64,000 bases of DNA. It comes from a virus. Below are positions 13,680-59,069 of this stretch, one piece after another; position 1 is the first letter of the stretch, and every line of letters starts with the position of its first letter. The stretch lies in IMG/VR virus record IMGVR_UViG_3300009509_000017, positions 1-64,000 of that record; one strand, written 5' to 3'. The position numbers were made by a program, and so were the translations under genes. Under the pieces are notes generated by a model. It had not been told where the DNA came from and searched no databases. It was given only the letters and a program-made list of their open reading frames with translations.

Positions 13680-15806
13680 ATGTCAGACGAGCAGGTACCA
13701 CAGAGAGAGCCAATACCGCAGAAGATAGAGCACCCGAGTAGCAACGTCTTTATTGAGCGTGGCTGGTCCGGCCTAAACTTCATGAGCGGCATGATTATGG
13801 AAGAGCCGCTGCAGGAACTGCGTGGACAGCAGGGTGCAGAAGAGTTCGACACGATGCGTCGTACAGACTCTACTGTCAGTGGTGTCCTCATGGCCTTGAC
13901 GTTACCGATCCGTGAGGCTCAGTGGCGAGTCAACCCGGTCAGCGATCTAGCGACAGATCGTGAGGCTGCAGAGTTTGTGGAGTCATGCCTGCACGACATG
14001 TCTACGTCGCTGGATGACGTGCTCACCGAGGCCACCACGATGTTTGCCTTTGGTTGGTCGCTGATGGAATGGGTGTTAAAGCGACGGCTAGGCCGGCGTC
14101 CAGGCCGGAACCTACCTGAGTCTGCCCACAACGATGGCAGAATCGGGTTCAGGAAGATTGCATTACGCAAGCAGACGTCCCTATGGGAATGGGACATGAC
14201 AGAGGATGGTGGGATCAACGGGATGTGGCAAGAGCGCTTGGGCAGAGCGCCTGCATTCATTCCCCTGGAGAAATCGTTACTGTTCAGGACCACCAAAGAG
14301 GGGAACAACCCCGAGGGGTTCAGTGTATTACGCCCTGCTTACAGGGACTGGCGTTACAAGGTCGAGATTGAGCGCATAGAGGCTATTGGCCTGCAGCGTG
14401 CGCTGATGGGCACGCCAGTCGTCAACCTTGGCCAGGGTGCCACCACAAACACTGCGGACCCGATCAATAGCCACGAGAAGCGTGCCAGGCAGATTCTGTC
14501 GAGCATTCACAAGAATGACACAACGGGAGTTATTGAGGAAGGCGAGATTCTGACATTCAGGTTCGAGACACCAAAGATGACAGGTGTCACCGCAGACTCT
14601 GATCGGGTCATCCAGCGCAAGGATGAGGCTATAGCCCGGGCTGCGCTGGCGTCCTGGTTACTCCTGGGGACCAGGGAGAAAGGCAGTTATGCCCTGGCCC
14701 GCGAGTTGGGTGACATGTTTTTCATTGCTGTCACTGGCTTTCTCCAGACGATCAGCCAGGTCTTCACCAGGTGGGCAGTGCCTACGCTCTTCATGTACAA
14801 CCCGTTCCCGGGCATCACCGGGTATCCAGAGATCACCACGTCGATCAATCGCCGGGTGGACCTGGAGACCATATCTAAGGTCGTGAATGAACTGGCGGGC
14901 AGCCAGGTCATCACGGTGGATCTGGCACTTGAGCAGTACATTCGAGAGCTTGCCGGGCTACCACGCAGGGCTGTGGATATCACACCCGAGGGTGAGCCGG
15001 TTACGCCAGCACCAGCAGAAGAGGGTGAGGACGTGGTTGCCGGCCCGGGCATCCCTGAGCAGGAACAGGACGCCAGGACGCAGATAGAGCAGTTCGGCAG
15101 GCGCACCCTACTGGATCGATACAAGGCGGCTACCGATGCTTACAAGCAAGCGCTCACCGATCAGTACGAGTACTGGCTAGATGAAACGTCCGCCGAGTTC
15201 GCAGCCGTGGCGCCAGAGGACATTGGCGCCTGGTACGACAAGGAATGGCCAGAGAGGGTTGTGGCGTTGTCCCTGCTATTGAAAAAGCTGGCCTGGGAAT
15301 GGCTGCCACGTGGCTATGAACTTGGTTTCAAAAGTTCAGCGATTCCTCCTGAGCAGCGCAGAGAAATCGACTACGAGCTTGCGGCGAACGACGAGTGGAT
15401 GGACACCCACCTGGGTGTGGCAATCGAGCACAGGGTGAACCTGGCAGAGCTTGCCGAGCTATCCTTTGTGGCCGACAAGCTGGAAAAGCGAGACGCCTTT
15501 AGGGGACTACTGATCGGCAAGCGTGGGCACGTTGGCCAGTATGCTGGTGCATTCTGGCGGGCTATATGGGTGGGTGCTACAGCCTACCTCTTGCTAGGTG
15601 GCGACGTGCACAAGATCCGGTGGGTGACTGACCCATTGGCCAAACATTGTAAGGACTGCAATCTGTTTGGTGACATCACCTACGAAAACATGCGGACGCT
15701 GATGAGGCATACAGGCGGGATCTTGCCTGGCACTGGAACAGAGTGTGATGGGAACTGTAGGTGTCACTTACAAAAAGATGACAGCGGGACCCTTATTGTG
15801 GTATAA
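13680..15806 (+). CDS. Portal protein fused to Mu F-like minor head domain
   Basis: A 708-residue protein. Residues about 30-450 read as a DUF935/Mu gp29-type portal, which forms the dodecameric DNA channel. A Pro/Glu-rich linker (about 440-470) leads to a C-terminal region ending HCKDC ... CDGNCRCHL, the Cys-containing end typical of Mu F-like (MuF) minor head proteins. In most phages these are two genes, so this is a fusion. Strong purine-rich leader (GGGGATAG) precedes the ATG. Confidence 0.87.
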   Translation: MSDEQVPQREPIPQKIEHPSSNVFIERGWSGLNFMSGMIMEEPLQELRGQQGAEEFDTMRRTDSTVSGVLMALTLPIREAQWRVNPVSDLATDREAAEFVESCLHDMSTSLDDVLTEATTMFAFGWSLMEWVLKRRLGRRPGRNLPESAHNDGRIGFRKIALRKQTSLWEWDMTEDGGINGMWQERLGRAPAFIPLEKSLLFRTTKEGNNPEGFSVLRPAYRDWRYKVEIERIEAIGLQRALMGTPVVNLGQGATTNTADPINSHEKRARQILSSIHKNDTTGVIEEGEILTFRFETPKMTGVTADSDRVIQRKDEAIARAALASWLLLGTREKGSYALARELGDMFFIAVTGFLQTISQVFTRWAVPTLFMYNPFPGITGYPEITTSINRRVDLETISKVVNELAGSQVITVDLALEQYIRELAGLPRRAVDITPEGEPVTPAPAEEGEDVVAGPGIPEQEQDARTQIEQFGRRTLLDRYKAATDAYKQALTDQYEYWLDETSAEFAAVAPEDIGAWYDKEWPERVVALSLLLKKLAWEWLPRGYELGFKSSAIPPEQRREIDYELAANDEWMDTHLGVAIEHRVNLAELAELSFVADKLEKRDAFRGLLIGKRGHVGQYAGAFWRAIWVGATAYLLLGGDVHKIRWVTDPLAKHCKDCNLFGDITYENMRTLMRHTGGILPGTGTECDGNCRCHLQKDDSGTLIVV

Positions 15807-46139: not shown

Positions 46140-46470
46140 CAGTGTCCACCTTTCTGCCTGCCGTGTACACAGGGTTCATTTCCCCACGGACTAAGAACGT
46201 CTCTTCTTCCATCGTCGTAGGATTGCGCACGGTGACCTGTACCACTTCTCCGCCGATGCAGGTGTAGTCACCCTGGCTGTCCCACCATTCAGCGAACTTT
46301 TCTGCTGCCGTCCGTGCAGAGGACGCATAGACCGTATGACCATCCTCTGGACAGTCATCATCGTGCTCGCCGGAGAACCAGCAGAGCCAGGATGGTGGGC
46401 AGGTATGCCGTTTCCATGAAAAGATAGGCTCGCCGCAGGTCTTGCACCACCAGTTGTCTCTATCAGCCAT
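46132..46470 (-). CDS. Zinc-binding protein, unknown
   Basis: A 112-residue protein starting MADRDNWWCKTCGEP, with several Cys/His (CKTC, HTC, LCW, CPEDGH). Start at 46470, overlapping the methyltransferase gene by 8 bp; a much longer frame upstream runs antiparallel in code with that gene and is not used. The metal site may serve DNA binding. Confidence 0.65.
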   Translation of the reverse strand: MADRDNWWCKTCGEPIFSWKRHTCPPSWLCWFSGEHDDDCPEDGHTVYASSARTAAEKFAEWWDSQGDYTCIGGEVVQVTVRNPTTMEEETFLVRGEMNPVYTAGRKVDTDG

Positions 46471-47185
46471 TGTGCACCACCCATCCCCTTGGCTGCACCA
46501 GGACGCCAAGGCTGTACAGTGAGGTTGCCGGCAGCATCTGTACCCGGTGTTGCTCGAACCCCCACCCCACGACCATACTACCCATTGCCGGAGAGTTACC
46601 TGATTTCTTGTGCCAGCTAGACAGGTTGGCCTTTGCGCACGGATCACACACAGGCAGCGTGCCCTTACCCCACAGGTTGTGCGCATCTGCAAACCCCGGG
46701 TGTGCACCATCAAGGCTGGCGATCATGTCCAGACTTGGCCTGCGCCTTTTGGCCGTCGATGTGCCGCAGTGGGTGCATGGCAGCAGGAACTTGATCCTGC
46801 CCTTGAGGAACAGGACCCAGTCAGCCACGGCTACATCGTCGTGGAACCAGCCAGCATCTGTGCGTGACCCGAGCAGAGCTACGGTAGCCACACCCTTGTG
46901 CGCCTGCTCGACAGCCTGGGCAGTCCAGAGCGGCACAGCGCTGCCGTACTCAGGGTTCATCCAGGCATGTCTCATGACCGTATCGGCGGCAAAGCGTGTG
47001 GCCCAGTCTGTGGCCAGACCGTCTTCCTCTTTGGTGATAAAGTTGGCTGGCACCTTGGTGTTGTGCTCACTGGCGCAGACGTCCAGGCCGAACTGAAAGA
47101 CCCGATCCAGCGCATCAAACAGCGGCTGTGGCGTCTCGTAGTCTGCCCGGGTGGAACTCCAGAACCCACGGTTTACTCTTGCCAT
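46463..47185 (-). CDS. Phage DNA N-6-adenine methyltransferase with zinc insertion
   Basis: A 240-residue Dam-type methyltransferase of phage type. Landmarks: YETPQPLFDAL (16-26), the catalytic-loop position NPEY (77-80), TVALLGSRTDAGWFHD (101-116) and GRIKF (129-133). NPEY differs from the usual (D/N)PPY. Between GRIKF and the final strand (SPAMGSMVVGWG) about 60 residues are inserted, with CTHC (137-140) and CDPC (180-183), a likely zinc ribbon. It would methylate adenines of phage DNA, perhaps against restriction. Confidence 0.82.
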   Translation of the reverse strand: MARVNRGFWSSTRADYETPQPLFDALDRVFQFGLDVCASEHNTKVPANFITKEEDGLATDWATRFAADTVMRHAWMNPEYGSAVPLWTAQAVEQAHKGVATVALLGSRTDAGWFHDDVAVADWVLFLKGRIKFLLPCTHCGTSTAKRRRPSLDMIASLDGAHPGFADAHNLWGKGTLPVCDPCAKANLSSWHKKSGNSPAMGSMVVGWGFEQHRVQMLPATSLYSLGVLVQPRGWVVHNG

Positions 47186-47244: not shown

Positions 47245-48243
47245 CTACAGGTCTACCTTGCCGTGCATGCCCTGCATCTGCTTGAGCGCCAGCTTGGCAT
47301 ACACACGAGTGATACCAGGGTCAGAGTGACCCATCAGGTCTGCTGCAGCGCCGAGGCCGGCGCCTACATACACTGCAGTGCCGAACCGGTGCCGGAACTG
47401 GTGCGGAGTGATCTTCTTCACGCCAGCATCCTCACACAGGCCGGCCAGGGTGCGGCGTACAGACTCAGTGGTCATGGCCATGTTGAAGTCTTTGACTACG
47501 TGGTCGAGCCGGATGAACACCGGGCAGTCTTCCCTGCCGTCAGGGTGTTCTGCCATCCAGTCGGACAGCCAGAATTGTGCTGCATCGTCCAGAAAGACGT
47601 AACGCTCTTTCTCTCCCTTGCCTGCAGGGACCACGATATAGCCGTCAGCCAGGTGGACGTGCCCGAACCGCATATCTACCAGTTCTTGGACCCGCACGCC
47701 AGTCGAGCGCAGTACCTCTACGATAGCTGCGTCACGGCTCGCCGTCCAGATCTGCCTGTCAGTGCCATCGTACCTGGTGCGCTCGTGCGCCTTGGCGAGA
47801 ACCTTTTGCACCGCATCCTCATCAGGCAACTTGGGCAGTGGTGCAGGCCGCCTGCCGTTCGCGTACCTGACAGCCTCTACCGCACGGTCCAGGTCGTCAC
47901 TGGAAAAGTGTGCCCACTGGCGCAGGATCAGCCACTTGAGAAAGACCCGTACCATAGCCACGTAGGTCTTCTGCGTCTCGTACTTCAAGCCATCATCCTG
48001 CAGCGTTGTCTTGTAGTCGATCAGATCCTCTGCTCGCACGTCTTCCACGGTGAAAAGGATCTCTTCCTCATCGCCATCAGAAACCGGATCGGTCAGTTCC
48101 CCGAACAGCGCCAGAAACCTGTTGAGCGCACTACGCATGGTCTTGATCGTCCGTGGCGACTTGCTCTGGCTGGTCAGGTAGTACTCTACCACAGCGGCCA
48201 GAGGCTCTTTGCTGATATCAAGTTGTGTCGTTCGTCTTGCCAT
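47245..48243 (-). CDS. int: Tyrosine recombinase (integrase)
   Basis: A 332-residue site-specific recombinase. Catalytic residues: R184 (TGVRVQEL), K209 (AGKGEKER), H281 and R284 (HQFRHRF), H306 (MGHSDP) and nucleophile Y315 (RVYAKL). The N-terminal core-binding (SAM-like) domain covers about 1-140. It resembles XerC/D-type phage integrases. No att site is evident. It could integrate the phage or resolve genome multimers; a gene for a CI-type repressor was not seen. Confidence 0.92.
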   Translation of the reverse strand: MARRTTQLDISKEPLAAVVEYYLTSQSKSPRTIKTMRSALNRFLALFGELTDPVSDGDEEEILFTVEDVRAEDLIDYKTTLQDDGLKYETQKTYVAMVRVFLKWLILRQWAHFSSDDLDRAVEAVRYANGRRPAPLPKLPDEDAVQKVLAKAHERTRYDGTDRQIWTASRDAAIVEVLRSTGVRVQELVDMRFGHVHLADGYIVVPAGKGEKERYVFLDDAAQFWLSDWMAEHPDGREDCPVFIRLDHVVKDFNMAMTTESVRRTLAGLCEDAGVKKITPHQFRHRFGTAVYVGAGLGAAADLMGHSDPGITRVYAKLALKQMQGMHGKVDL

Positions 48244-49525: not shown

Positions 49526-49702
49526 CTACCGTTCTCGCAGGCGCTGCCCGAGTCCCCCACGCTCAGGCTTGTCATGCTGCTCAGTCTGGCCAAGCTCACG
49601 CAGGAATGCAGTAGCATCACTGCACCCCTCACCGTTGAACCCTTGCGCATCGTACACGATCTTGCCGTCTATGATCTTGAACTCGATCACCTTGTCGTTC
49701 AT
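49526..49702 (-). CDS. DUF2997 protein
   Basis: A 58-residue protein (starts MNDKVIEFKIIDGKIVYDA) not large enough for most gene callers. It carries the DUF2997 pattern: two N-terminal strands, then a G-x-x-G-x-x-C-x-x-x-T turn (GFNGEGCSDAT) and a helix FLRELG. Its ATG overlaps the TGA of the DUF1257 gene, and that pair sits next to a Ycf46-like ATPase, the conserved partner set. The C terminus is basic. Function unknown. Confidence 0.85.
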   Translation of the reverse strand: MNDKVIEFKIIDGKIVYDAQGFNGEGCSDATAFLRELGQTEQHDKPERGGLGQRLRER

Positions 49703-50157
49703 CTGCTCAACCCCTCTCTGGCCAGCGTTGCGCCCATCTGCGCAGGGATGATCTCACCTGTGACGTGCCCGGTGTTCCTGTCCAGTTCGTAGCTCATTGT
49801 GAATCCCCGAGGCAGCCCACGCTCTGCTAACTTGAAGGCGTAGAGGTTCTGAATAGACTGCCAGTTTGCAGGCGCATTGCCATGGGCGATGTCGATCTCC
49901 GCCCGGTAGGTGCCGTCTCCGTTGGACACAAAGGCTGTGTCTCCACAGTAGCGCCTGGGTGTGGTGTCCAGGCCGCCACTCAGGCGACCGATCACCACTG
50001 TGGCGTCACGTCCCCTTGCCTTGCCAGGCATCTGCCATTTGTGGTAGGCTAGCTTGCCGGCAGGATCGTAGACGTATCTCAGTCCCAGTTCGTCCAGCAC
50101 TGCACAGAGCAGTGCCATGTCATTGATCTCAGTCTGGACCGTTCCGTATACAGACAT
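49699..50157 (-). CDS. DUF1257 protein
   Basis: A 152-residue protein with the DUF1257 layout: MSVYGTVQTEINDMALLCAVLDELG at the N terminus (strand and helix), a middle GDTAFVSNGDGTY, and a C-terminal half with Y at LYAFKLAERG. DUF1257, DUF2997 and a Ycf46-type AAA protein commonly occur together in bacteria and chloroplast genomes' relatives; no biochemical role is established that I know of. Ribosome site AAAGGGGG. Confidence 0.8.
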   Translation of the reverse strand: MSVYGTVQTEINDMALLCAVLDELGLRYVYDPAGKLAYHKWQMPGKARGRDATVVIGRLSGGLDTTPRRYCGDTAFVSNGDGTYRAEIDIAHGNAPANWQSIQNLYAFKLAERGLPRGFTMSYELDRNTGHVTGEIIPAQMGATLAREGLSR

Positions 50158-50189
50158 CTTGCGTACCCCCTTTCGGTTAGTGTTGGTTA

Positions 50190-50227
50190 TAGGAATAACG
50201 GCTGGCAGTATGTATCACTGCCAGCCG
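50190..50227 (-). repeat. Leader hairpin module, class B
   Basis: CGGCTGGCAGT (50199-50209) pairs with ACTGCCAGCCG (50217-50227), 11 bp, 7-nt loop. The minus strand continues CGTTATTCCTATAA before the DUF1257 leader. Class B modules recur at 63131 and 63606. Confidence 0.85.
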
Positions 50228-50233
50228 CATTCG

Positions 50234-51952
50234 CTATAGTTCGATCTGGCCCGGGCCAGTTGCCTCATGGCCAACCGTGTCAGGCTGCGCTGACGATGCG
50301 GGCATTGCCCACTGCATTGCCTTTTCGCGCATCACGGCGATGTCATCACCTGCCTGGCGAGACATCTGCGACCGGACCACGATCTGGCTATGCAGTAGCT
50401 CGACCGTCAGGTCTTGCTCTGCACTCCATGCGATCCTGTGCGCAGCCTCTATTGCCTGCTCGATCCCCCGGGGATTGATTGACGACCGTACTGTCTCCGC
50501 TGCGACAGCGGGCAGCCCGGGGTCATCCACCAGGTGGCCCAGTCCCCTCTTGGTCAGGTGGATCTGGAAGACCTGCAGTGCCTCTGCCGTGTTCCTGGGC
50601 AGGTCTACCAGCCAGCGATCCTCAAACCGATCCCGCAGTGGTGCAGGCAGTCGGTCAGGGTGGTTGGTCGTAGCGACCACGATGCACTGCGACTTGCGTT
50701 CCTGCATCCAGGTGAGCAGTTGCTGCTGCATTTCCTTGGATACCTCATGCTGATCGCCGCTGTCACTAAAGACCAGGTCGATCTCGTCTACCCACAGCAC
50801 ACACAGGTTGATAGCGTCCGCTGCGTTCAGTACCGCACGGACGTTGGCGGCAGTGTTGCCCACCCACATGTTCTTGCTCTCTGCAGGTGACCACCGCAGG
50901 ATGGGCAGCAGGCCGCCACCCAGGCACTTGCAGGCCAGCGACTTGCCAGTGCCGGCAGGACCCATCATCAGGATTGCCCGGGGTGGTCGCACATTGGCCG
51001 CCCGGGCAGCCTGGGTCAGTAGCCTGGGATAGTCCCTTACCGCTGTCTTGAGCAGGTCCAGGCCGCCGATGTGATCCAGAGGTTCAGGTTCGATCAGTTC
51101 GATCCCCTGCTGTTGCTTGAGGATCTGAGCTTTCATGCCGCTGATGATAGGCCCGCACTTGTCAGCCGACAGTTCTTTGGCCATCACCATAGCCTGGCGG
51201 AGTACGAACCCTGCCTGTGTCCAGGTCAGAGCCGTCAGCGCCTGGGCCAGGACCTCAGCGCCACCGTTCTTGACGTCATCGCTGACAGGGATATTCACCC
51301 TGCTGGCTGTGGCCCTGACCATTGCCGTCAGTTCGTCTACGTCAGGCAGTGGCCAGCGGATAACCACGATCTCTGTGGTACTGTCGCCCAGTTGCGACAT
51401 GTCAGGTGCCGTGATGATGCAGGTTGACTTGGTGGGCAGCAGACCGTAGAACAGGTCGCGCATGGACCGGATGCTGGCAGGGTCACCCTTGCCCTCACCC
51501 CCACCCAGGAACCTGTGCAGGTCGTGCATGATCAGGACCGATGCCCGTTCACGCATCAGGTCTTCGTCCAGGCCGCCATCGTTCAGTTCTGCCCTTGCCC
51601 ACCTGCAGAAGTCCTGCGCTGCAGCGTAGGGCTGGTTGGTGTTCTTGTTCTTGCGTGCCGCGAGAAAGGCGTCAGCCTCATCGTAGCGCTTGGTCAGTGA
51701 GTCAGGGACATTCTGCAGGTCCCTGAACCGTGGTCGAACGAGCACCAGGCCGCCAGTGTGTGTCCACACGAAAACCAGCCGCTCGTCCATGGCGATCTTG
51801 CTCTCATCGGTCAGGCTGATCATAGGGAAGTCAGTCATGCGCCTGACGTACTCCACGATCCGTGCCTCTTCCGTGGTCTCGATACCGATCAAGGGAACCC
51901 TTGCCCGTATCGCCGTCTCCAGTGCTGCCAGTGCTGCCTCAGTTGCTTTCAT
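50234..51952 (-). CDS. Ycf46-like AAA ATPase
   Basis: A 572-residue AAA protein. The first 30 residues (RVPLIGIETTEEARIVEYVRRM) match the Ycf46 N-terminal start. Walker A GPAGTGKS (331-338), Walker B with D389/E390 (LWVDEID), and a later TTNHPDRLP with Arg finger region (DRFED) are clear. It likely remodels a substrate by ATP hydrolysis together with the DUF1257 and DUF2997 proteins. Substrate unknown. Confidence 0.87.
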   Translation of the reverse strand: MKATEAALAALETAIRARVPLIGIETTEEARIVEYVRRMTDFPMISLTDESKIAMDERLVFVWTHTGGLVLVRPRFRDLQNVPDSLTKRYDEADAFLAARKNKNTNQPYAAAQDFCRWARAELNDGGLDEDLMRERASVLIMHDLHRFLGGGEGKGDPASIRSMRDLFYGLLPTKSTCIITAPDMSQLGDSTTEIVVIRWPLPDVDELTAMVRATASRVNIPVSDDVKNGGAEVLAQALTALTWTQAGFVLRQAMVMAKELSADKCGPIISGMKAQILKQQQGIELIEPEPLDHIGGLDLLKTAVRDYPRLLTQAARAANVRPPRAILMMGPAGTGKSLACKCLGGGLLPILRWSPAESKNMWVGNTAANVRAVLNAADAINLCVLWVDEIDLVFSDSGDQHEVSKEMQQQLLTWMQERKSQCIVVATTNHPDRLPAPLRDRFEDRWLVDLPRNTAEALQVFQIHLTKRGLGHLVDDPGLPAVAAETVRSSINPRGIEQAIEAAHRIAWSAEQDLTVELLHSQIVVRSQMSRQAGDDIAVMREKAMQWAMPASSAQPDTVGHEATGPGQIEL

Positions 51953-52041: not shown

Positions 52042-52500
52042 TCATAACTCGATATCCCACGGTTGTGGCACGTCATGCTCACCGACGAACCTTGGTGGCT
52101 GTACATCGTCCAGGTGTCCAAAGAACTCTGCCGTTATCTCAGAGAAACTAGGGACTTCTACTGAGAGCGAGAACCCTGCGGTCATCACGTAGCCCGAGAC
52201 GCAGCCGCACTTGTATATGAACATGACAGGCACGTGGTTCTCGTTTGGCGTGTTTGCCTGCAGGTGTTGTATCAGTTCCACCATACCATCGCTCTCAGTG
52301 ATGCCGTCGAGTGGCAGGTAGCCTGCAGACGATCTGATCTCCGGCGCATAGATAACCACGCCCGGGCCATGTGCTGCCACTCCATCCATGTAGGTGTCAT
52401 AGATGCCAGGAAAGAGTGACAGCACGTTCTTGGTTTCCAGTGTGTGTTGTTCTGGACCGTGGGTGTGCTGCTCGTGCAAGGTCAGTACCGTGTTAGCCAT
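52042..52500 (-). CDS. Unknown protein beside the AAA gene
   Basis: A 152-residue alpha/beta protein with CGC (YKCGCVSG) near its centre. It lies between the AAA gene and the large coiled-coil gene. It might belong to the same functional set, but no family is recognised. Confidence 0.65.
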   Translation of the reverse strand: MANTVLTLHEQHTHGPEQHTLETKNVLSLFPGIYDTYMDGVAAHGPGVVIYAPEIRSSAGYLPLDGITESDGMVELIQHLQANTPNENHVPVMFIYKCGCVSGYVMTAGFSLSVEVPSFSEITAEFFGHLDDVQPPRFVGEHDVPQPWDIEL

Positions 52501-52510
52501 GGTGCACCCC

Positions 52511-53806
52511 CTATATGTCCATCATCGTCATAGCGTCGATCTCCAGGTTGGCTGCGACGTCTGCGGCATCGGACAGGGCAGTGCCGATAGCCTGGCGGAT
52601 ATTGGACAGCACAGCGTCAGCGTCGTACTTGCCGCCGCCAGTGTCTACGGACTGCAGGCTGTCAGCCAGAGCCTGCAGGCGCTGTTCCATTTCTGTATCG
52701 CTGGTGATGTTCATGAGCTTGAACCACTCGTGCAGCGACCGGATAGCGTTTGCCTCTTTGCCGTGCACCCATCCCCTGCGGGTGATGTTGGTCTGCAGTC
52801 CGGAGAGTGTGGCGTAGATGCGCTGCCTATTGTCCTCTACGATCTGCAGCAGAGGGTTGACCGTGTCTTTCACGACCTCTCTTGCGATCTCGATCTGCGC
52901 CTGGCGGATTGCCCTGATCTCTTCCTCTGCCTGGAACTTGGCTATCCGCTCACGCTCTGCAGCCTCTATCTCCGCAGCCTTGGCCAGGTCGCCGGCAGCA
53001 CGTGCCTCAGCCTCTGCCTTTTCCGCCCGGGCCTTGTTCTGCCGTGCCCACATGTCATGTTCCAGCCGCTCTTTCTCGTACTCATCCCTGCGCTGGCTGG
53101 CCAGTCGCTGCGCCTTGAGCAGTTCCGCCTGGTACTCGCTCTCAAGCAGGAAAGTGGCAGGCGGCTTGATGCTGATCTGTAGGTCGCTCTCGATGCGAGA
53201 CTTGCTAGGAAAGTGACTCAGTGCGTCAGCCACGACCAGGTCCACGAACGCTTGCTGCTCGTACTTGGCCTGGATAGCAGGTGTGGCAGCATAGGTGTCG
53301 CGGGCATGCTTGCGGTAGTCCGCCCGGCAGTCCGCTTTCAGCGTGTTGTAGTTCTCGATGATCCACGCCTTGTAGTCTGCCCACTCTTTCATCAGTTCCT
53401 GGTGCCGTTCCCACCAGGTGAGAAAGGCAGAGTAGGGCACGTAGCGATAGCCAGGGAACACTGCGATGGCCTGGCTGTAGCGCAGCAGGTTGTCGCGGAT
53501 ACGCTGCGCCACGCTCGCTAGCCTGGTGTCGGGCAGCAGGTTCTTGCGCCCGATGCGCAAGCGCTTGGTGACCCTGCGGGCATCACGAGAACTTACCCCC
53601 AGGTCCAGTTGCCAGGACGTGCGAGCCTCAAACATCGTCAGCCCGTTGATGTCCAGGTCCAGCAACATGCCCGCATCACGTAGAGACTTTACGTTTGCGT
53701 GCAAAACTTCAACCTCTCCACCATCGAAACCCATGGCGACCAGGTTGGCCAGCGCTTGGCGCCGGACTGTGTCAGCGGCATTGGTAGCCAGCAGTTCGTC
53801 AGTCAT
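52511..53806 (-). CDS. Large coiled-coil protein of the AAA neighbourhood
   Basis: A 431-residue protein. Residues about 1-140 form a globular helical domain; about 235-310 are a long Glu/Arg/Ala-rich coiled coil; the C-terminal domain ends near 431. The N-terminal layout (LDINGLTMFEA, RKNLLPDTRLASV) is loosely like DUF3150-type proteins, but I cannot confirm. It may be a scaffold or partner of the AAA protein encoded downstream. Confidence 0.6.
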   Translation of the reverse strand: MTDELLATNAADTVRRQALANLVAMGFDGGEVEVLHANVKSLRDAGMLLDLDINGLTMFEARTSWQLDLGVSSRDARRVTKRLRIGRKNLLPDTRLASVAQRIRDNLLRYSQAIAVFPGYRYVPYSAFLTWWERHQELMKEWADYKAWIIENYNTLKADCRADYRKHARDTYAATPAIQAKYEQQAFVDLVVADALSHFPSKSRIESDLQISIKPPATFLLESEYQAELLKAQRLASQRRDEYEKERLEHDMWARQNKARAEKAEAEARAAGDLAKAAEIEAAERERIAKFQAEEEIRAIRQAQIEIAREVVKDTVNPLLQIVEDNRQRIYATLSGLQTNITRRGWVHGKEANAIRSLHEWFKLMNITSDTEMEQRLQALADSLQSVDTGGGKYDADAVLSNIRQAIGTALSDAADVAANLEIDAMTMMDI

Positions 53807-53904: not shown

Positions 53905-54480
53905 TTACAATGACTCCCGCTGGTACTTGTGCGGATACTTGACTGACCAATCCATCATTGCCATGGCAAGTTGTGCCATGGCGTTGAGGCGGCGACCCCA
54001 CCACTCTTCAAAGAGTTTGTCTGCGTTGGCTCGAAATCGCTTGGTATACTCATCGTCGTTCAGCAGTCCACCGAACACCATTTCTTTCTGCGTCTCTGCG
54101 ATTGCCCGGTTGGCCAGATCTGCGCTGTTGTCCAGATCGATCAACTGTGGGCTGGCTATCCCACGCCTGTACAGGGAAAGGGATAGCGTTGCAGAGTAGC
54201 CGCCATGTGATATACGACCGAGCCAGATGACGATCCGGTCAGCGAACAGTTCTAGCGCAGAGGTTAATTCTAGCGGCAGTGCGATGTAGACAGCGTACCC
54301 TAGCATTTGGTGGTGCATCGGTGCAATGTTCAGATCCTCTGCAGCGATGGCGCATTCACGCAGCCAGATAGATGGCTGCGTACCATCACCATGGACACCC
54401 ATGACGGCGCCGTGTTCTAGTCGCCAGTGGCTGCCGCATCCATGGAGTAGCCCGAGATTGTCAAGTTCAAGATCTGGCAT
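53905..54480 (-). CDS. Unknown protein
   Basis: A 191-residue protein beginning MPDLELDNLGLLHGC. Start at 54480 overlaps the upstream gene by 14 bp; an extended frame to 54645 is a shadow of that gene. Helical C-terminal half with a Trp-rich tail. No family recognised. Confidence 0.65.
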   Translation of the reverse strand: MPDLELDNLGLLHGCGSHWRLEHGAVMGVHGDGTQPSIWLRECAIAAEDLNIAPMHHQMLGYAVYIALPLELTSALELFADRIVIWLGRISHGGYSATLSLSLYRRGIASPQLIDLDNSADLANRAIAETQKEMVFGGLLNDDEYTKRFRANADKLFEEWWGRRLNAMAQLAMAMMDWSVKYPHKYQRESL

Positions 54481-54802
54481 TGCCCGCATCCTCTGGCGGC
54501 TCTTTGTACAGGTCAGGGAACTTTTTACACACCCGGTGGTAGTTCCGGCTGACCGTCTTGTAGTTCGGCACACCCTTGCGCTTGCCACCGATGATGTCCA
54601 GCACAACCTCAACCTGTCCGTTCTCGATAAGCTGGCCCAGTCCATGAAACTCGTCCCAAACCTTGGCCACTACGGCGCCTACATGACCCCGCAGGTCAGG
54701 GTTGGTCTCCAGCACGAACCTGACCTGTGCAAACGTGCCACTGATGATGGGCACGTCTTTGTCCAGGCCAAACATACCAAGCTGTTTAGCTGTTCCCGCC
54801 AT
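54467..54802 (-). CDS. Unknown protein with HTH-like C-terminal part
   Basis: A 111-residue protein, ATG at 54802 after AAAGGGGGAC and overlapping the radical SAM gene by 17 bp. The C-terminal part (RKGVPNYKTVSRNYHRVCKK) may be a helix-turn-helix. Possibly a small regulator; otherwise unknown. Confidence 0.6.
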   Translation of the reverse strand: MAGTAKQLGMFGLDKDVPIISGTFAQVRFVLETNPDLRGHVGAVVAKVWDEFHGLGQLIENGQVEVVLDIIGGKRKGVPNYKTVSRNYHRVCKKFPDLYKEPPEDAGNARS

Positions 54803-55502
54803 TTCCGTCTGTCCCCCTTTCGCTTTCTCCACACCGTGGCGTGGGAATCTGTTTGCCCGCCAGGTTCAAAAGGGCATCTTCCATCCATCCCTTGGCGGCT
54901 GTGATAGCGCCATCTGTGATGGTGATCATGCCGTTGGTTGTCCAGTCCAGTAGGACCAGGTCACTTGCGGGCATTGGCGCGAGCAGGCTGCCCGCATTGT
55001 CCAGGGTTGACTCCACGTCGATGACCCGCTGGTTGGCAGACCCCACATACTGCATATGGTCGTTGTCCAGTTCCCACATGTAGGGACCATCCACCAGCAC
55101 CCTGATATGGAACAGGATCAGGCGACGGTAGCGCCACCCGATGGTTGTTCTGTTCACCAGTCGTTCCCACTTGTACCCGGTGTAGACGATGATGTGCGCC
55201 GACTGATCCAGTGCCCTTATGGCAGTGACCAGCATCAGTAGTTCCTCTGCCTGATCGAAAGGTTCACCACCAGTGATGGTGTATCGGTGCGAGCCACCAC
55301 CCAGGTCCTTGTTCCACTCTACCATCTGTCCTGCGAGTCTCATAGGGTCACCAGCCATGCCACCCCACTTGTCCCACAGTTCCTTGTTCTGGCAGCGCCC
55401 ACAGTGGATACTGCAGCCCTGGAACCAGATGACTGTGCGGACACCCGGGCCATCTACGGTGCTTGCCGCTCTCATGCCAGCGTATCTAAGTACTAGGCTC
55501 AT
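54786..55502 (-). CDS. nrdG: Anaerobic ribonucleotide reductase activating protein (radical SAM)
   Basis: A 238-residue radical SAM enzyme. It has a C-x3-C-x2-C cluster motif (C30, C34, C37 in GCSIHCGRC), a TGGEPF motif and the NrdG-like DGPGVRTVIWFQGC lead. NrdG makes the glycyl radical of the class III reductase, NrdD, which gives dNTPs in anaerobes. No nrdD gene is present in the window. Confidence 0.85.
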   Translation of the reverse strand: MSLVLRYAGMRAASTVDGPGVRTVIWFQGCSIHCGRCQNKELWDKWGGMAGDPMRLAGQMVEWNKDLGGGSHRYTITGGEPFDQAEELLMLVTAIRALDQSAHIIVYTGYKWERLVNRTTIGWRYRRLILFHIRVLVDGPYMWELDNDHMQYVGSANQRVIDVESTLDNAGSLLAPMPASDLVLLDWTTNGMITITDGAITAAKGWMEDALLNLAGKQIPTPRCGESERGTDGNGGNS

Positions 55503-55567: not shown

Positions 55568-56941
55568 CTACAATTCATCCAGCGGCATGCGTATCTGCAG
55601 CCCGCCATCTTTCTTGATGATCCTGGTGCCCACCACCTGGTTGCACCAGGGGCGCATGTACAGGAACACGGTACCAATCGGCCCATTACGGTTCTTGCCA
55701 ACGATCCACTCCATCCTGCCCTTGGCTGTGGTATCCTCTGGCTCGTACAGTTCCTGCCTATAGAGAAAGACCACTACATCAGCATCCTGCTCTAGTGCGC
55801 CAGACTCTCTCAGGTCAGAGAGGATAGGCCGCTTGTCCTGACGCTGCTCGACACCACGAGATAGCTGTGCATTGGCGACGACAGGGATATTAAGATCCTT
55901 GGCCAGCAACTTTAGCGCACGAGATATAGCGTCTACCTGCTCTCGACGGTTGAACCCATCGCTGGACGTCATAAGCTGCACGTAGTCGATGGCCAGCAGG
56001 TCTAGCCCGTACTCCGCCATGTGCTTGCGGGCAGTTGCCCGTAGCTCTGCAGGATCTTTGGTGCCACTCCACACCACGTGCATGGGCAAGTCTGTCAGCC
56101 TGGACATCGCATCCATCAGGCGCAGGAACTCACCGTCAGCGAACTGCCCACGTCGCACGCTCTTGGTGTTCAGCCCTGCCTCTATGCAGCCCATGCGCTG
56201 CGCTAGTTGGTCAGCGCTCATTTCCAGACTGATGAGCAGGGTGCGCTTGCCGGCCTTAGACGCATTCATGCATAGGTTCAGCAGGGTAGCCGTCTTGCCC
56301 ACCGATGGCCTGGCGGCCAGGATGGTCAGGTCACCCTTGTGCAGCCCGCCTACCAGGTCGTCCACATCGTGCCATCCAGTTGGCACGCCCATGACCCCCT
56401 GTCGCTGCATCGCACTCTCTACCTGGTCATACAATCCGCTCATCAGTTGGGCTGCAGACAGCTTGGAGTCGTCCACCATATCTGCTGTAGCCTCAAAATA
56501 TAAGCGATCCGCATCGGCCAGGACATCGGTCAGGTCCCGGCTCTTGTCATAGGCAGCCTGCGCTACCCTGGCGGCCATGTCCACCATCTTGCGTCTCTTG
56601 GACAGTGACCGCACGATGTTAGCGTAGTGTTCTACGTGTAGGCTGGTTGGAGTTTCCAAAGAAAGTTCAGTGAGGTAGGTAGGTCCACCGCACTTGTCGA
56701 GATAACCCTGGTTGTCCAGAAAGTCTGACGTAGTCAGCAGGTCGATCTCGACCTGGCTCTGGTGCAAGCGTAACATGGCAGCGTAGATCCACTGGTGCCT
56801 GTCACGCCAAAAGTCGCCCGGTGCCAGCTTGTCGCTGATCCTGACAATTGCGTGTGGATCGATCAGCAGCGCACCAAGTACTCCCTGCTCTGCCTCTATA
56901 GAGGACAGAGGTTCTGGCTTGCTAGTCTTCCGTGTTGCCAT
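55568..56941 (-). CDS. dnaB: Replicative DNA helicase (DnaB family)
   Basis: A 457-residue hexameric helicase. N-terminal domain about 10-130, then RecA-fold with Walker A ARPSVGKT (210-217), H1a SLEMS (238-242), Walker B in AIDYVQLM, and an arginine-finger region near the C terminus. Normal length. It overlaps the loader gene by 20 bp. Confidence 0.95.
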   Translation of the reverse strand: MATRKTSKPEPLSSIEAEQGVLGALLIDPHAIVRISDKLAPGDFWRDRHQWIYAAMLRLHQSQVEIDLLTTSDFLDNQGYLDKCGGPTYLTELSLETPTSLHVEHYANIVRSLSKRRKMVDMAARVAQAAYDKSRDLTDVLADADRLYFEATADMVDDSKLSAAQLMSGLYDQVESAMQRQGVMGVPTGWHDVDDLVGGLHKGDLTILAARPSVGKTATLLNLCMNASKAGKRTLLISLEMSADQLAQRMGCIEAGLNTKSVRRGQFADGEFLRLMDAMSRLTDLPMHVVWSGTKDPAELRATARKHMAEYGLDLLAIDYVQLMTSSDGFNRREQVDAISRALKLLAKDLNIPVVANAQLSRGVEQRQDKRPILSDLRESGALEQDADVVVFLYRQELYEPEDTTAKGRMEWIVGKNRNGPIGTVFLYMRPWCNQVVGTRIIKKDGGLQIRMPLDEL

Positions 56942-57488
56942 CCATCCCCCTTTCGAGTAGGGCAGCGACTGTGCCCGGTGTTAGTTGCCATGTTGCCACT
57001 CTCTGCCAATTCTCCACCATGGCAGGGTAGATCTGCTTGAGCCAGTGTGCCCGGTCTGTTGGTATGTTATCACTGGCAGACAGGTACTTGACACCACCGA
57101 TGGCGTCCACTGCCAATTCCACCACGTGGTGCGACCACTTGATAGGCCCATAGCCGCCGCCAGGCAGTGGCATGCCACGTGTGCCGTACTCCATGATATT
57201 GTGCCTGACCTCAGCCCAGGCATCCTCTGCACTTGGCAGACCCAGGTGCTCTGCTACCTCTGCCAGTGTAGCCTTGCGCACCACGGCTGGTGGTGGCATT
57301 ATGGTCGCCATATCCCATGTGCGCAGAATGCGCAACACCCCTGCTTGTATGGCATTGATCGGCAAGCCGTCCAGTACCAGGGCATATGCCTGGATATTGC
57401 GGAGATTCAACCCAGGTGCTTGTGGCAGCCCATCATTCAGCACCCGCAGTGTCTTGCCCAGTTCTACTAGCCGCTCTTGGGATATCAT
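56922..57488 (-). CDS. Putative helicase loader
   Basis: A 188-residue helical protein next to the helicase gene. The start (residues about 5-80) with a PPPAVVRKATL turn near 65-75 recalls G39P-like loader/inhibitor proteins (Px-P-aeiR pattern). No ATPase motif. It overlaps the helicase by 20 bp and the initiator gene by 4 bp. Confidence 0.65.
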   Translation of the reverse strand: MISQERLVELGKTLRVLNDGLPQAPGLNLRNIQAYALVLDGLPINAIQAGVLRILRTWDMATIMPPPAVVRKATLAEVAEHLGLPSAEDAWAEVRHNIMEYGTRGMPLPGGGYGPIKWSHHVVELAVDAIGGVKYLSASDNIPTDRAHWLKQIYPAMVENWQRVATWQLTPGTVAALLERGMDGNTED

Positions 57489-58702
57489 GCTGGCACCCCC
57501 AGTTCTAGCGCACCCTCTAGCTGCAGGATGGCTTGCTCTGTCATGTCCGATCCACTCGTCGCCGGCCTTTTCTTGCCTGGCCTACTGGCGTAGTACAGAT
57601 CGATCCGTGCCTCATCCGGCAACACATCTGATACAGCCATGTCCGCCTGCATCTTTCGCAGGTCGCCTGCGATGACACGTAGTGTGTTGCTGGTCGAGAT
57701 AGGTGACACGATGTCAAAGGTCCAGTCCTGGTTCAGTGTCCGCCTGTAATGCAGTAGCTGGAGACCCCATCTGGCATTCCGCACAACAGCTTGCCTTGCC
57801 GGAGTCTGGCCAGCCATACGCATGTCATCTGCAAAGGCTATGAACGTCTCGACTATGCCACGTCGCCACTGGGTGATCGTGGTCTTGACTGACGGTGTGG
57901 CGATGTCAAACAGTGTGCTAAACAGGCAGGCATACTCGTAGACGTCCACCCAGGACACCTTGAACGGGAATGTCACTCTACGGTTGGTGTTATACCACGC
58001 AGCCTGCACCAGGTCCATGTTCTGCCTGGCCTGGCCAGATCCAGGCGTGGCTATCTGTGCCTTTTCGTCATCGGTCAGATCGGCCATGTCGCCATTCAGG
58101 ATCACGCTACTTTTGTGCTCGTTGCGCTCGCCAAAGACTTCATCCAGCACCTGGCCAGAAGGCGACGGCTCGCCGTCGCTTTTCTTGTGAGTATTCTCTT
58201 GTGTAGTCTGTGTAGTACTCTCTGGAATAGATTGCTGGTTTTCCGCATTCTGGTCTGCGGGTTCTGCGGGTTTAGTTTGCGGGTTTCCTGCATCCTTGTC
58301 TGCGGGTTTCCTGCAATCTGGAGTCTGGCAATCCTGCAGCCAGGCCATGAGGATCTTGGTGAGCTTGGCAAAGTGAATGCGGAAATAGAGCCTTGCTGGC
58401 ACGTCCATCAGTTTCTCGCTCAGGACCCCGAGCTTGATCAGTTTGCGCCTGACTCTCTCTTGCTGCGACCTGGTCAGTGCCGTCTCGTTGTAGATCTCTC
58501 CCTGTGTCTTGGCCACCCACCCAGGTTTCCAGGTACCTTTGTCGTGCCAGTACATAATCTGTGCCAGGAACAGGGCTGCAGGTATGTCGTTGCTCAGTGC
58601 CTTGGCCAGGGCAGGGTGGTAGGCGACCGGACGGTCACCCAGGATAGACCACACTGCCAGGGCTGCGTCACCCCACGGTGTTGTACGCTGTTCATCTGCC
58701 AT
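57485..58702 (-). CDS. Replication initiator-like protein
   Basis: A 405-residue protein. The N-terminal domain (about 20-125) has a winged-helix layout (ALFLAQIMYWHDKG, TQGEIYNETALTRSQQERVRRKLIKLGVL) as in phage replication proteins that feed DnaB. A Gln/Glu/Thr-rich linker follows (about 130-180), then a helical C-terminal domain (210-405). Start 58702 overlaps the upstream gene by 11 bp. Confidence 0.75.
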   Translation of the reverse strand: MADEQRTTPWGDAALAVWSILGDRPVAYHPALAKALSNDIPAALFLAQIMYWHDKGTWKPGWVAKTQGEIYNETALTRSQQERVRRKLIKLGVLSEKLMDVPARLYFRIHFAKLTKILMAWLQDCQTPDCRKPADKDAGNPQTKPAEPADQNAENQQSIPESTTQTTQENTHKKSDGEPSPSGQVLDEVFGERNEHKSSVILNGDMADLTDDEKAQIATPGSGQARQNMDLVQAAWYNTNRRVTFPFKVSWVDVYEYACLFSTLFDIATPSVKTTITQWRRGIVETFIAFADDMRMAGQTPARQAVVRNARWGLQLLHYRRTLNQDWTFDIVSPISTSNTLRVIAGDLRKMQADMAVSDVLPDEARIDLYYASRPGKKRPATSGSDMTEQAILQLEGALELGVPA

Positions 58703-59069
58703 GGCTGTAGTCTCCAGGTGACACTGCGTCCACAAAGATATCGTCTCCTGCGGCAGGTGTGCAGTCGGTGGTACCGAACCGTGGCGGCTGTCCATCTAGT
58801 GTGGCCAGCCTGTACCCCACTGGCACACCGTCACGGACGACAGGGATCAGTCTGCCCAGGTCGCCATCGATCCGGCGCCCATCTGCAAAGATGGCCACCC
58901 CGCTTGCCATCAGGTAGCCAGTGTCTTCATCTACCCATTGCCGCTCGATCTGTAGCTCAGTCACCCTTGGTAGTGTAGCGTACTCAGTGGGGACCTCTGC
59001 CTGTAGGGACTTGCCCAGTGCGTCCAGTAGCGCTTGCTTTGCTTTCTCGAACTCTTCTGCTGTTGGCAT
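58692..59069 (-). CDS. First gene of the replication operon, unknown
   Basis: A 125-residue protein with a helical N terminus and a beta-rich middle (YLMASGVAIFADGRRIDGD). It is the first gene after the structured RNA and promoter at 59.1-59.25 kb, with AGGGAAAGGA before its ATG. No family recognised. Confidence 0.65.
   Translation of the reverse strand: MPTAEEFEKAKQALLDALGKSLQAEVPTEYATLPRVTELQIERQWVDEDTGYLMASGVAIFADGRRIDGDLGRLIPVVRDGVPVGYRLATLDGQPPRFGTTDCTPAAGDDIFVDAVSPGDYSHGR

Follow-up and report, generated by a model that had tools for sequence, protein, structure and literature searches.

A phage cassette of a tandem AAA ATPase, DUF1257-like and DUF2997 proteins, a helical partner and a radical SAM enzyme

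What does a phage do with the genes for an AAA ATPase of the Ycf46 type, a DUF1257 protein and a DUF2997 protein? The question is raised by a locus in IMG/VR virus record IMGVR_UViG_3300009509_000017, of which positions 1 to 64,000 were analysed (the window, 64,000 nt; the whole phage record has 70,268 bases). A first-pass annotation had reported the full set here, and had suggested a five-gene machine that also includes a large coiled-coil gene at 52511 and a gene at 52042. The three genes of the set are indeed present, and all three open reading frames (ORFs) lie on the minus strand where that annotation had placed them in the ORF list. We regard the set rather as a conserved cassette, with a radical SAM enzyme among its members; this enzyme accompanies the set repeatedly in bacteria, plasmids and viruses, and had not been counted.

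Members of the gene set

The AAA gene matches PF00004 at 1.3e-27, with 97.3 bits against a cut-off of 21.2, and phrog_8638 at 1.2e-65. In its C-terminal domain the Walker A motif (GPAGTGKS), the DE of Walker B, sensor 1 and the Arg residues are aligned in 11/11 rows. The N-terminal half has no Walker A motif; compared with the C-terminal AAA domain of the same protein it gives 41% (E 2.8e-4), against at most 0.4% for six control families and at most 1.3% for 20 shuffles. By sequence comparison, the AAA protein of a Trichormus plasmid appears to be a relative (2.6e-46, 28% identity). The gene fails the curated cut-off for FtsH (64 vs 600 bits).

The 58-amino-acid (aa) gene is over the cut-off for DUF2997 (PF11211, 28.9 bits vs 24.1). 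Gly13, Gly24 and Cys27 are invariant in 38/38 rows, these being the rows used out of 62 located. The predicted structure (pLDDT 65) is beta-beta-alpha, with Cys27 at the start of the helix, and a VIA search with this fold gave no match. Two other identities were tried for the protein. As a miniature NifU/IscU it gave weak PDB profile matches (0.29-0.32), and comparison with a NifU profile gave 15% with a score of 21.5 vs 14.5 for the best shuffle, but the radical SAM control gave 14%. As a TSCPD protein it reached only 0.1% by profile.

The 152-aa gene has no Pfam match at E<=1, and PF06868 is without match in the whole record. Hidden Markov model (HMM) searches by family thus recover AAA and DUF2997 but miss DUF1257, which, taken literally, speaks against the full set. 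This is overturned by hhalign, in which a profile made from the window and its relative L001, an IMG/VR contig, was aligned with ten DUF1257 rows (Pfam-accepted, so annotated, or close kin). The probability is 95.6% (E 1.1e-8), and 11 control families give at most 0.66%. An HMM built from these ten rows alone places the 152-aa protein first among the window ORFs (E 1.6e-6). On these profiles the protein is a distant relative of DUF1257, and not a member by Pfam's cut-off. With its predicted structure (pLDDT 81), Foldseek searches of PDB and BFVD gave nothing at E<=1e-3, and the best VIA Z is 6.3. The stop of this gene and the start of the DUF2997 gene overlap by 4 bases (ATGA), as the first-pass annotation had noted.

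The 52511 gene matches 16 loci by blastp, at 1e-36 to 1e-7, besides L001 and L091 (which is the same contig as L001). Its profile aligns with the Acidobacterial gene found upstream of AAA at 99.5% (E 8.5e-23). A homologue lies upstream of AAA in 14 of 80 viral AAA loci and in 15 genome loci, the latter all belonging to genomes of Acidobacteria type. The viral matches number 17, of which L230, L233 and L267 (short, weak and downstream of AAA) are excluded from the 14; the 14 include the contigs of L001 (as L196) and L092 (as L207), and a pair, L239 and L246, that seem to be near-copies of each other. As judged from its homologues, the 52511 helical gene belongs to the set as a true partner, and this part of the proposed five-gene machine stands. 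With DUF1257 or coil queries, tblastn against phages and plasmids gave nothing credible.

A relationship of the coil to DUF3150 is suggestive. There is no PF11348 (DUF3150) match at E<=1, and the full alignment against a DUF3150 profile gives 55.8% (E 1.1e-4, controls at most 0.42%), but sub-alignments give only 6.4% and 2.8%. The DUF3150 profile was made from 18 usable rows of 24 places; the remainder had stops, were empty or were left out. The coil may therefore be a far DUF3150 relative. DUF3150 genes resemble the phage arrangement in that the partner gene adjoins an AAA-like gene: a P-loop ORF adjoins the DUF3150 gene in 15/24 loci, vs 1/25 and 1/25 in controls. The AAA there, which we take to be of the CobS/MoxR type, is of another kind from that of the phage, and the link from coil to DUF3150 falls to 3-6% with subsets.

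The 52042 gene fared less well. Its only relative is its positional counterpart in L001, the nearest phage, at 29-30% identity. It was compared with the WGR-like bacterial gene that occupies the same place, and this was rejected (profile 0.09%). The gene is in the operon and appears to be phage-specific; its kinship to the bacterial counterpart is unsupported, and it is not shown to be part of the system.

The radical SAM enzyme has a Fer4_12 domain with a CxxxCxxC core. The CxxxCxxC and GGEP motifs are intact, and Cys30, Cys34 and Cys37 are invariant in 5 rows. Against the NrdG equivalog TIGR02491 it scores 103.5 bits, below the cut-off of 126.1.

Recurrence in viruses, bacteria and plasmids

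The L001 contig has the same gene order as the window. Among 12 genes compared between the two, DUF1257 is the best conserved, at 73% identity; AAA and coil have 63%, DUF2997 has 53%, the radical SAM enzyme 48% and 52042 30%. For the six genes, dN/dS between window and L001 is about 0.16-0.43 (with dS near saturation). Because the order recurs in this related contig and dN/dS is in this range, the six behave as real genes.

Comparison of gene neighbourhoods in isolated phages, which had been proposed as a check, found the trio again. Eleven records with AAA matches were inspected, seven with a tandem AAA and four with a short AAA. Both DUFs are found in 5/7 of the tandem-AAA phages (SM1, RHph_I4, L338C, RcKickapoo and JP1), while Dylan and Javan368 do not have both, and in 0/4 of the short-AAA records. 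Mycobacterium phage Dylan (L002), of Corndog type, has its tandem AAA near ParB-like and Ku genes, and DUF2997 is unmatched in the record. In Paenibacillus phage Yyerffej (L194) a short AAA gene and the S8 peptidase gene after it make up an IetAS-like pair, and a gene annotated as toxin lies further on.

A wider survey took the 80 best viral-contig AAA loci. Both DUFs are present in 30/80, at least one in 36/80 and the radical SAM gene in 9/80; the trio is thus not special to this phage. DUF2997 shares the strand of AAA in 35/35 viral cases. The order radical SAM-coil-AAA-DUF1257-DUF2997 occurs in 5 viral contigs besides the window, two of them being the L001 and L092 contigs. Since the local HMMs (A1-A4) derive from the window and L001-L010, their matches to these are by construction. 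Scans of viral contigs with a single AAA and a single DUF1257 protein gave 0 and 1 contigs, and a scan with the radical SAM enzyme gave 26 loci, 4 of them with an AAA gene. The virus contigs L112 (2964-8507) and L247 have a ThiF (E1-like) gene near AAA, DUF1257, DUF2997 and radical SAM.

In bacteria the linkage can be followed from two further anchors. When the 80 best genome loci were collected with the radical SAM enzyme, using the window and four relatives as queries, AAA and/or DUF2997 was found within 7 kb in 45/80, and both in 40/80. NrdD-like sequence was found in 0/42 of the AAA-positive loci vs 20/38 of the AAA-negative ones. In a tree of these enzymes, which omitted loci L117 and above and L091, the window and L001 fall in a clade (99/96) with L092, L014 and L011, whose rows all show DUF1257 and/or DUF2997 nearby; none of the 29 NrdD-linked rows is inside it. 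In two spirochaete loci, L005 (Treponema plasmid pTRESU01) and L067 (Spirochaetes), the radical SAM and AAA pair adjoins genes for phage baseplate V or GPD tail-hub proteins, a hint that the pair may be connected with contractile tails.

Anchored on DUF2997, the loci have AAA nearby in 12/13, the exception being a weak sub-cut-off match, and radical SAM within about 3.1 kb in 7/13. The family itself is patchy, being matched in 9/199 Acidobacteriota genomes and in 3/296 Actinomycetota genomes (one of the three over cut-off). The set is therefore probably an accessory, mobile cassette, and the description of it as widely conserved in bacteria was too strong.

The Acidobacterial operon reads ERF, Prok-E2_D, JAB (just below its cut-off), ThiF, DUF2958, coil, small gene, AAA, DUF1257, DUF2997 and radical SAM. 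It shares with the phage the coil-AAA-DUF1257-DUF2997 order and a homologous coil, but adds the E1/E2/JAB genes and has radical SAM at the opposite end. E2_D is within 7 kb at 7/10 DUF2997 places, in five Acidobacterial genomes. One such genome (G005) has three copies of the set (L121, L126 and L138), each with E2_D within 7 kb. Plasmid and Actinobacterial cassettes of Rhodococcus and Paenarthrobacter, in the order AAA, DUF1257-like, DUF2997, HhH protein and 4Fe-4S radical SAM, share the AAA, DUF2997 and radical SAM subfamilies with the phage, but have a helix-hairpin-helix (HhH) protein of about 280 aa in place of the coil gene.

The cyanobacterial and plastid genes ycf46 (AAA), ycf35 (DUF1257) and DUF2997 belong to the same three families as the phage genes. 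Trichormus plasmid A has the order DUF1257-DUF2997-84 aa-AAA, no coil gene was seen there, and radical SAM was without match. The cyanobacterial system differs from the phage in that, in an excerpt of PMC4284462, the ferredoxin gene fed7 adjoins the chromosomal DUF2997-ycf35 pair to form a duf2997-ycf35-fed7 cluster. Passages of PMC7496141 report that the ycf46 operon responds to iron and sulphur deficiency, and cite lower carbonic anhydrase activity in a ycf46-operon mutant. Freshwater red-algal plastids tend to be without both ycf35 and ycf46, according to a passage of PMC5940233.

Layout of the phage locus

The features of the locus are collected in Table 1. The order of transcription is O-like initiator, P-like loader, DnaB, radical SAM, two small genes, coil, 52042, AAA, DUF1257-like and DUF2997, after which come RusA, integrase and Dam methylase. 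GGGG-rich stretches resembling ribosome sites lie upstream of the DUF2997, DUF1257, AAA, 52042, 52511 and 54786 genes. Of the two small genes, the one at 53905 gave no family match in Pfam or PHROG, and the one at 54467 gave none in a Pfam search. With an integrase and a Dam methylase beyond the cassette, the phage is possibly temperate. A portal protein is encoded elsewhere in the window.

Table 1. Coordinates of features in the window
Feature	Position	Strand	Remarks
DUF2997 protein	49526..49702	-	58 aa
Distant DUF1257 (Ycf35-type) protein	49699..50157	-	152 aa
Tandem AAA+ ATPase	50234..51952	-	572 aa; degenerate N-terminal AAA, intact C-terminal AAA
Phage-specific protein	52042..52500	-	152 aa; in operon
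Helical/coiled partner	52511..53806	-	431 aa; conserved upstream of AAA
Phage gene between radical SAM and coil	53905..54480	-	27% identity to L001 2656-3192; listed ORF 53905-54645, start near 54480 inferred from L001
Phage gene between radical SAM and coil	54467..54832	-	121 aa; 56-58% identity to L001
NrdG-like radical SAM enzyme	54786..55502	-	238 aa; PF13353 1.8e-28
DnaB helicase	55568-56941	-	DnaB_C 4.7e-84
Weak P-like loader	56922-57488	-	phrog_109 0.003
O-like replication initiator	57485-58795	-	phrog_9773 1.2e-34
Dam methylase	46463-47185		downstream of cassette
Tyrosine integrase	47245-48243		downstream of cassette
Portal protein	13680-15806		resembles Mu and P23-45 portals

Possible functions and significance

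We tentatively suggest, at somewhat below an even chance, that this mobile-element cassette encodes an ATP-driven complex for protein remodelling, coupled to radical or iron-sulphur (Fe-S) chemistry. The AAA protein, which is of Ycf46 type and has a dead and a live AAA domain, would be the hexameric motor, with the 52511 protein and DUF1257 as adaptors and with DUF2997 as a small subunit carrying a cysteine. A protein held by this complex would be modified, or given a radical, by the NrdG-like radical SAM enzyme; the first candidate target is DUF2997 itself, at the invariant Gly24/Cys27. Since the operon continues from the O-like initiator, the putative loader and DnaB, the most likely targets in the phage would be DNA replication proteins. 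The replication side has circumstantial support from this block next door, and from Rhizobium phage L338C, where an O-like gene and then DnaB are found downstream of the trio.

In favour of the remodelling complex are the linkage, which was found from three anchors (radical SAM, DUF2997 and viral AAA), the intact catalytic motifs of the AAA and radical SAM proteins, the Gly/Gly/Cys residues conserved throughout DUF2997, and NrdD, which was found neither in the 70,268-base phage record (PF13597) nor in the 42 AAA-positive radical SAM loci. The leaning towards Fe-S chemistry has outside hints in the excerpts cited above, namely the fed7 cluster, the response to iron and sulphur, and the red-algal loss.

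Several results weigh against it. In 39/80 viral AAA loci no other member is seen, and 71/80 are without radical SAM, which is thus not obligatory. The radical SAM gene was not found by HMM in phages SM1, RHph_I4, RcKickapoo and Dylan or in the Trichormus plasmid, and the stretches that were read of JP1, L338C and others do not contain it. In the phage, 980 bases and two unrelated genes separate it from the coil gene. The radical SAM enzymes linked to AAA do not form a single clade (8 changes; support for the deep fork 60/94), and fold searches of DUF1257 and DUF2997 yielded nothing usable. Because most phage versions are without radical SAM, the core may be AAA-DUF1257-DUF2997, with radical SAM, ferredoxin or HhH proteins as exchangeable extras.

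The same parts could make an activase or repair machine, in which the AAA ring pulls apart a damaged cofactor-bearing radical or Fe-S enzyme and radical SAM recharges it. Rubisco and diol-dehydratase activases are analogues. AAA does occur together with radical SAM or ferredoxin and a cysteine-bearing small protein, and the links to iron and sulphur stress (in the passages of PMC7496141) fit such a role, but clustering of the neighbours found no large client enzyme common to the loci, and the resemblance of DUF2997 to NifU is no better than to radical SAM. We regard this as rather unlikely.

An ordinary NrdG, activating the host anaerobic ribonucleotide reductase and only placed near an independent AAA/DUF1257/DUF2997/coil set, is unlikely. 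The enzyme has the radical SAM core and Fer4_12 domain of NrdG and the glycyl-radical activases, its best NCBIfam and PHROG names are NrdG (TIGR02491 1e-29, phrog_626 9e-30), and many phages and plasmids have the set without it. It differs in scoring below the NrdG cut-off and in coming from a phage without NrdD; moreover the five rows of its clade are all near DUF1257 and/or DUF2997 with none labelled NrdD, and half of the 80 genome relatives adjoin both AAA and DUF2997.

The Acidobacterial operon raises a third possibility, which we consider quite unlikely: that E1, E2 and JAB proteins tag, and a p97-like AAA module removes, proteins on replicating mobile DNA, with phages retaining the motor half only. 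The ThiF, Prok-E2_D and weak Prok-JAB matches of that operon, the frequent nearness of E2_D to DUF2997, ThiF near the set in L112 and L247, and the AAA profile, whose nearest match among solved structures is Cdc48/VAT, all point this way. However, Acidobacteria were the only group in which the E1/E2/JAB set was seen. Neither the phage record nor three viral relatives have E2_D (PF14460), and the window Pfam scans gave no E1 (ThiF) or JAB match. A Prok_Ub search found no ubiquitin-like protein, but its positive control matched nowhere either. A combined version is very doubtful; here the phage would have an unfoldase in which radical SAM charges DUF2997 and the motor then acts on replication proteins, and the Acidobacterial motor would be the p97-like arm of a ubiquitin-like system on mobile DNA.

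A defence or counter-defence module of the IetAS kind is highly improbable: IetA models match the ATPase domain at 1e-15, but at 47.1 bits against an IetA cut-off of 510, no subtilase family is among the matches listed in the window Pfam scans, and PADLOC gave nothing besides the IetA-type matches to the ATPase.

Returning to the remodelling complex, the five-gene machine first proposed is thus kept in part, with the coil as a member, 52042 set aside as showing no relation to the bacterial gene at its place, and radical SAM added. The genes ycf46, ycf35 and DUF2997 are carried in cyanobacterial and plastid genomes without known mechanism, and just two papers mention DUF2997 (among the open-licence PMC papers searched). 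A set known only by co-occurrence here gains a concrete, testable composition. The phage set, with radical SAM and the helical partner in a recurring order, names the proteins to purify together, and the cassette suggests a reaction in which a protein held by AAA undergoes radical or Fe-S chemistry. In Acidobacteria the link to E1/E2/JAB, if functional, would tie the AAA motor to bacterial ubiquitin-like tagging.

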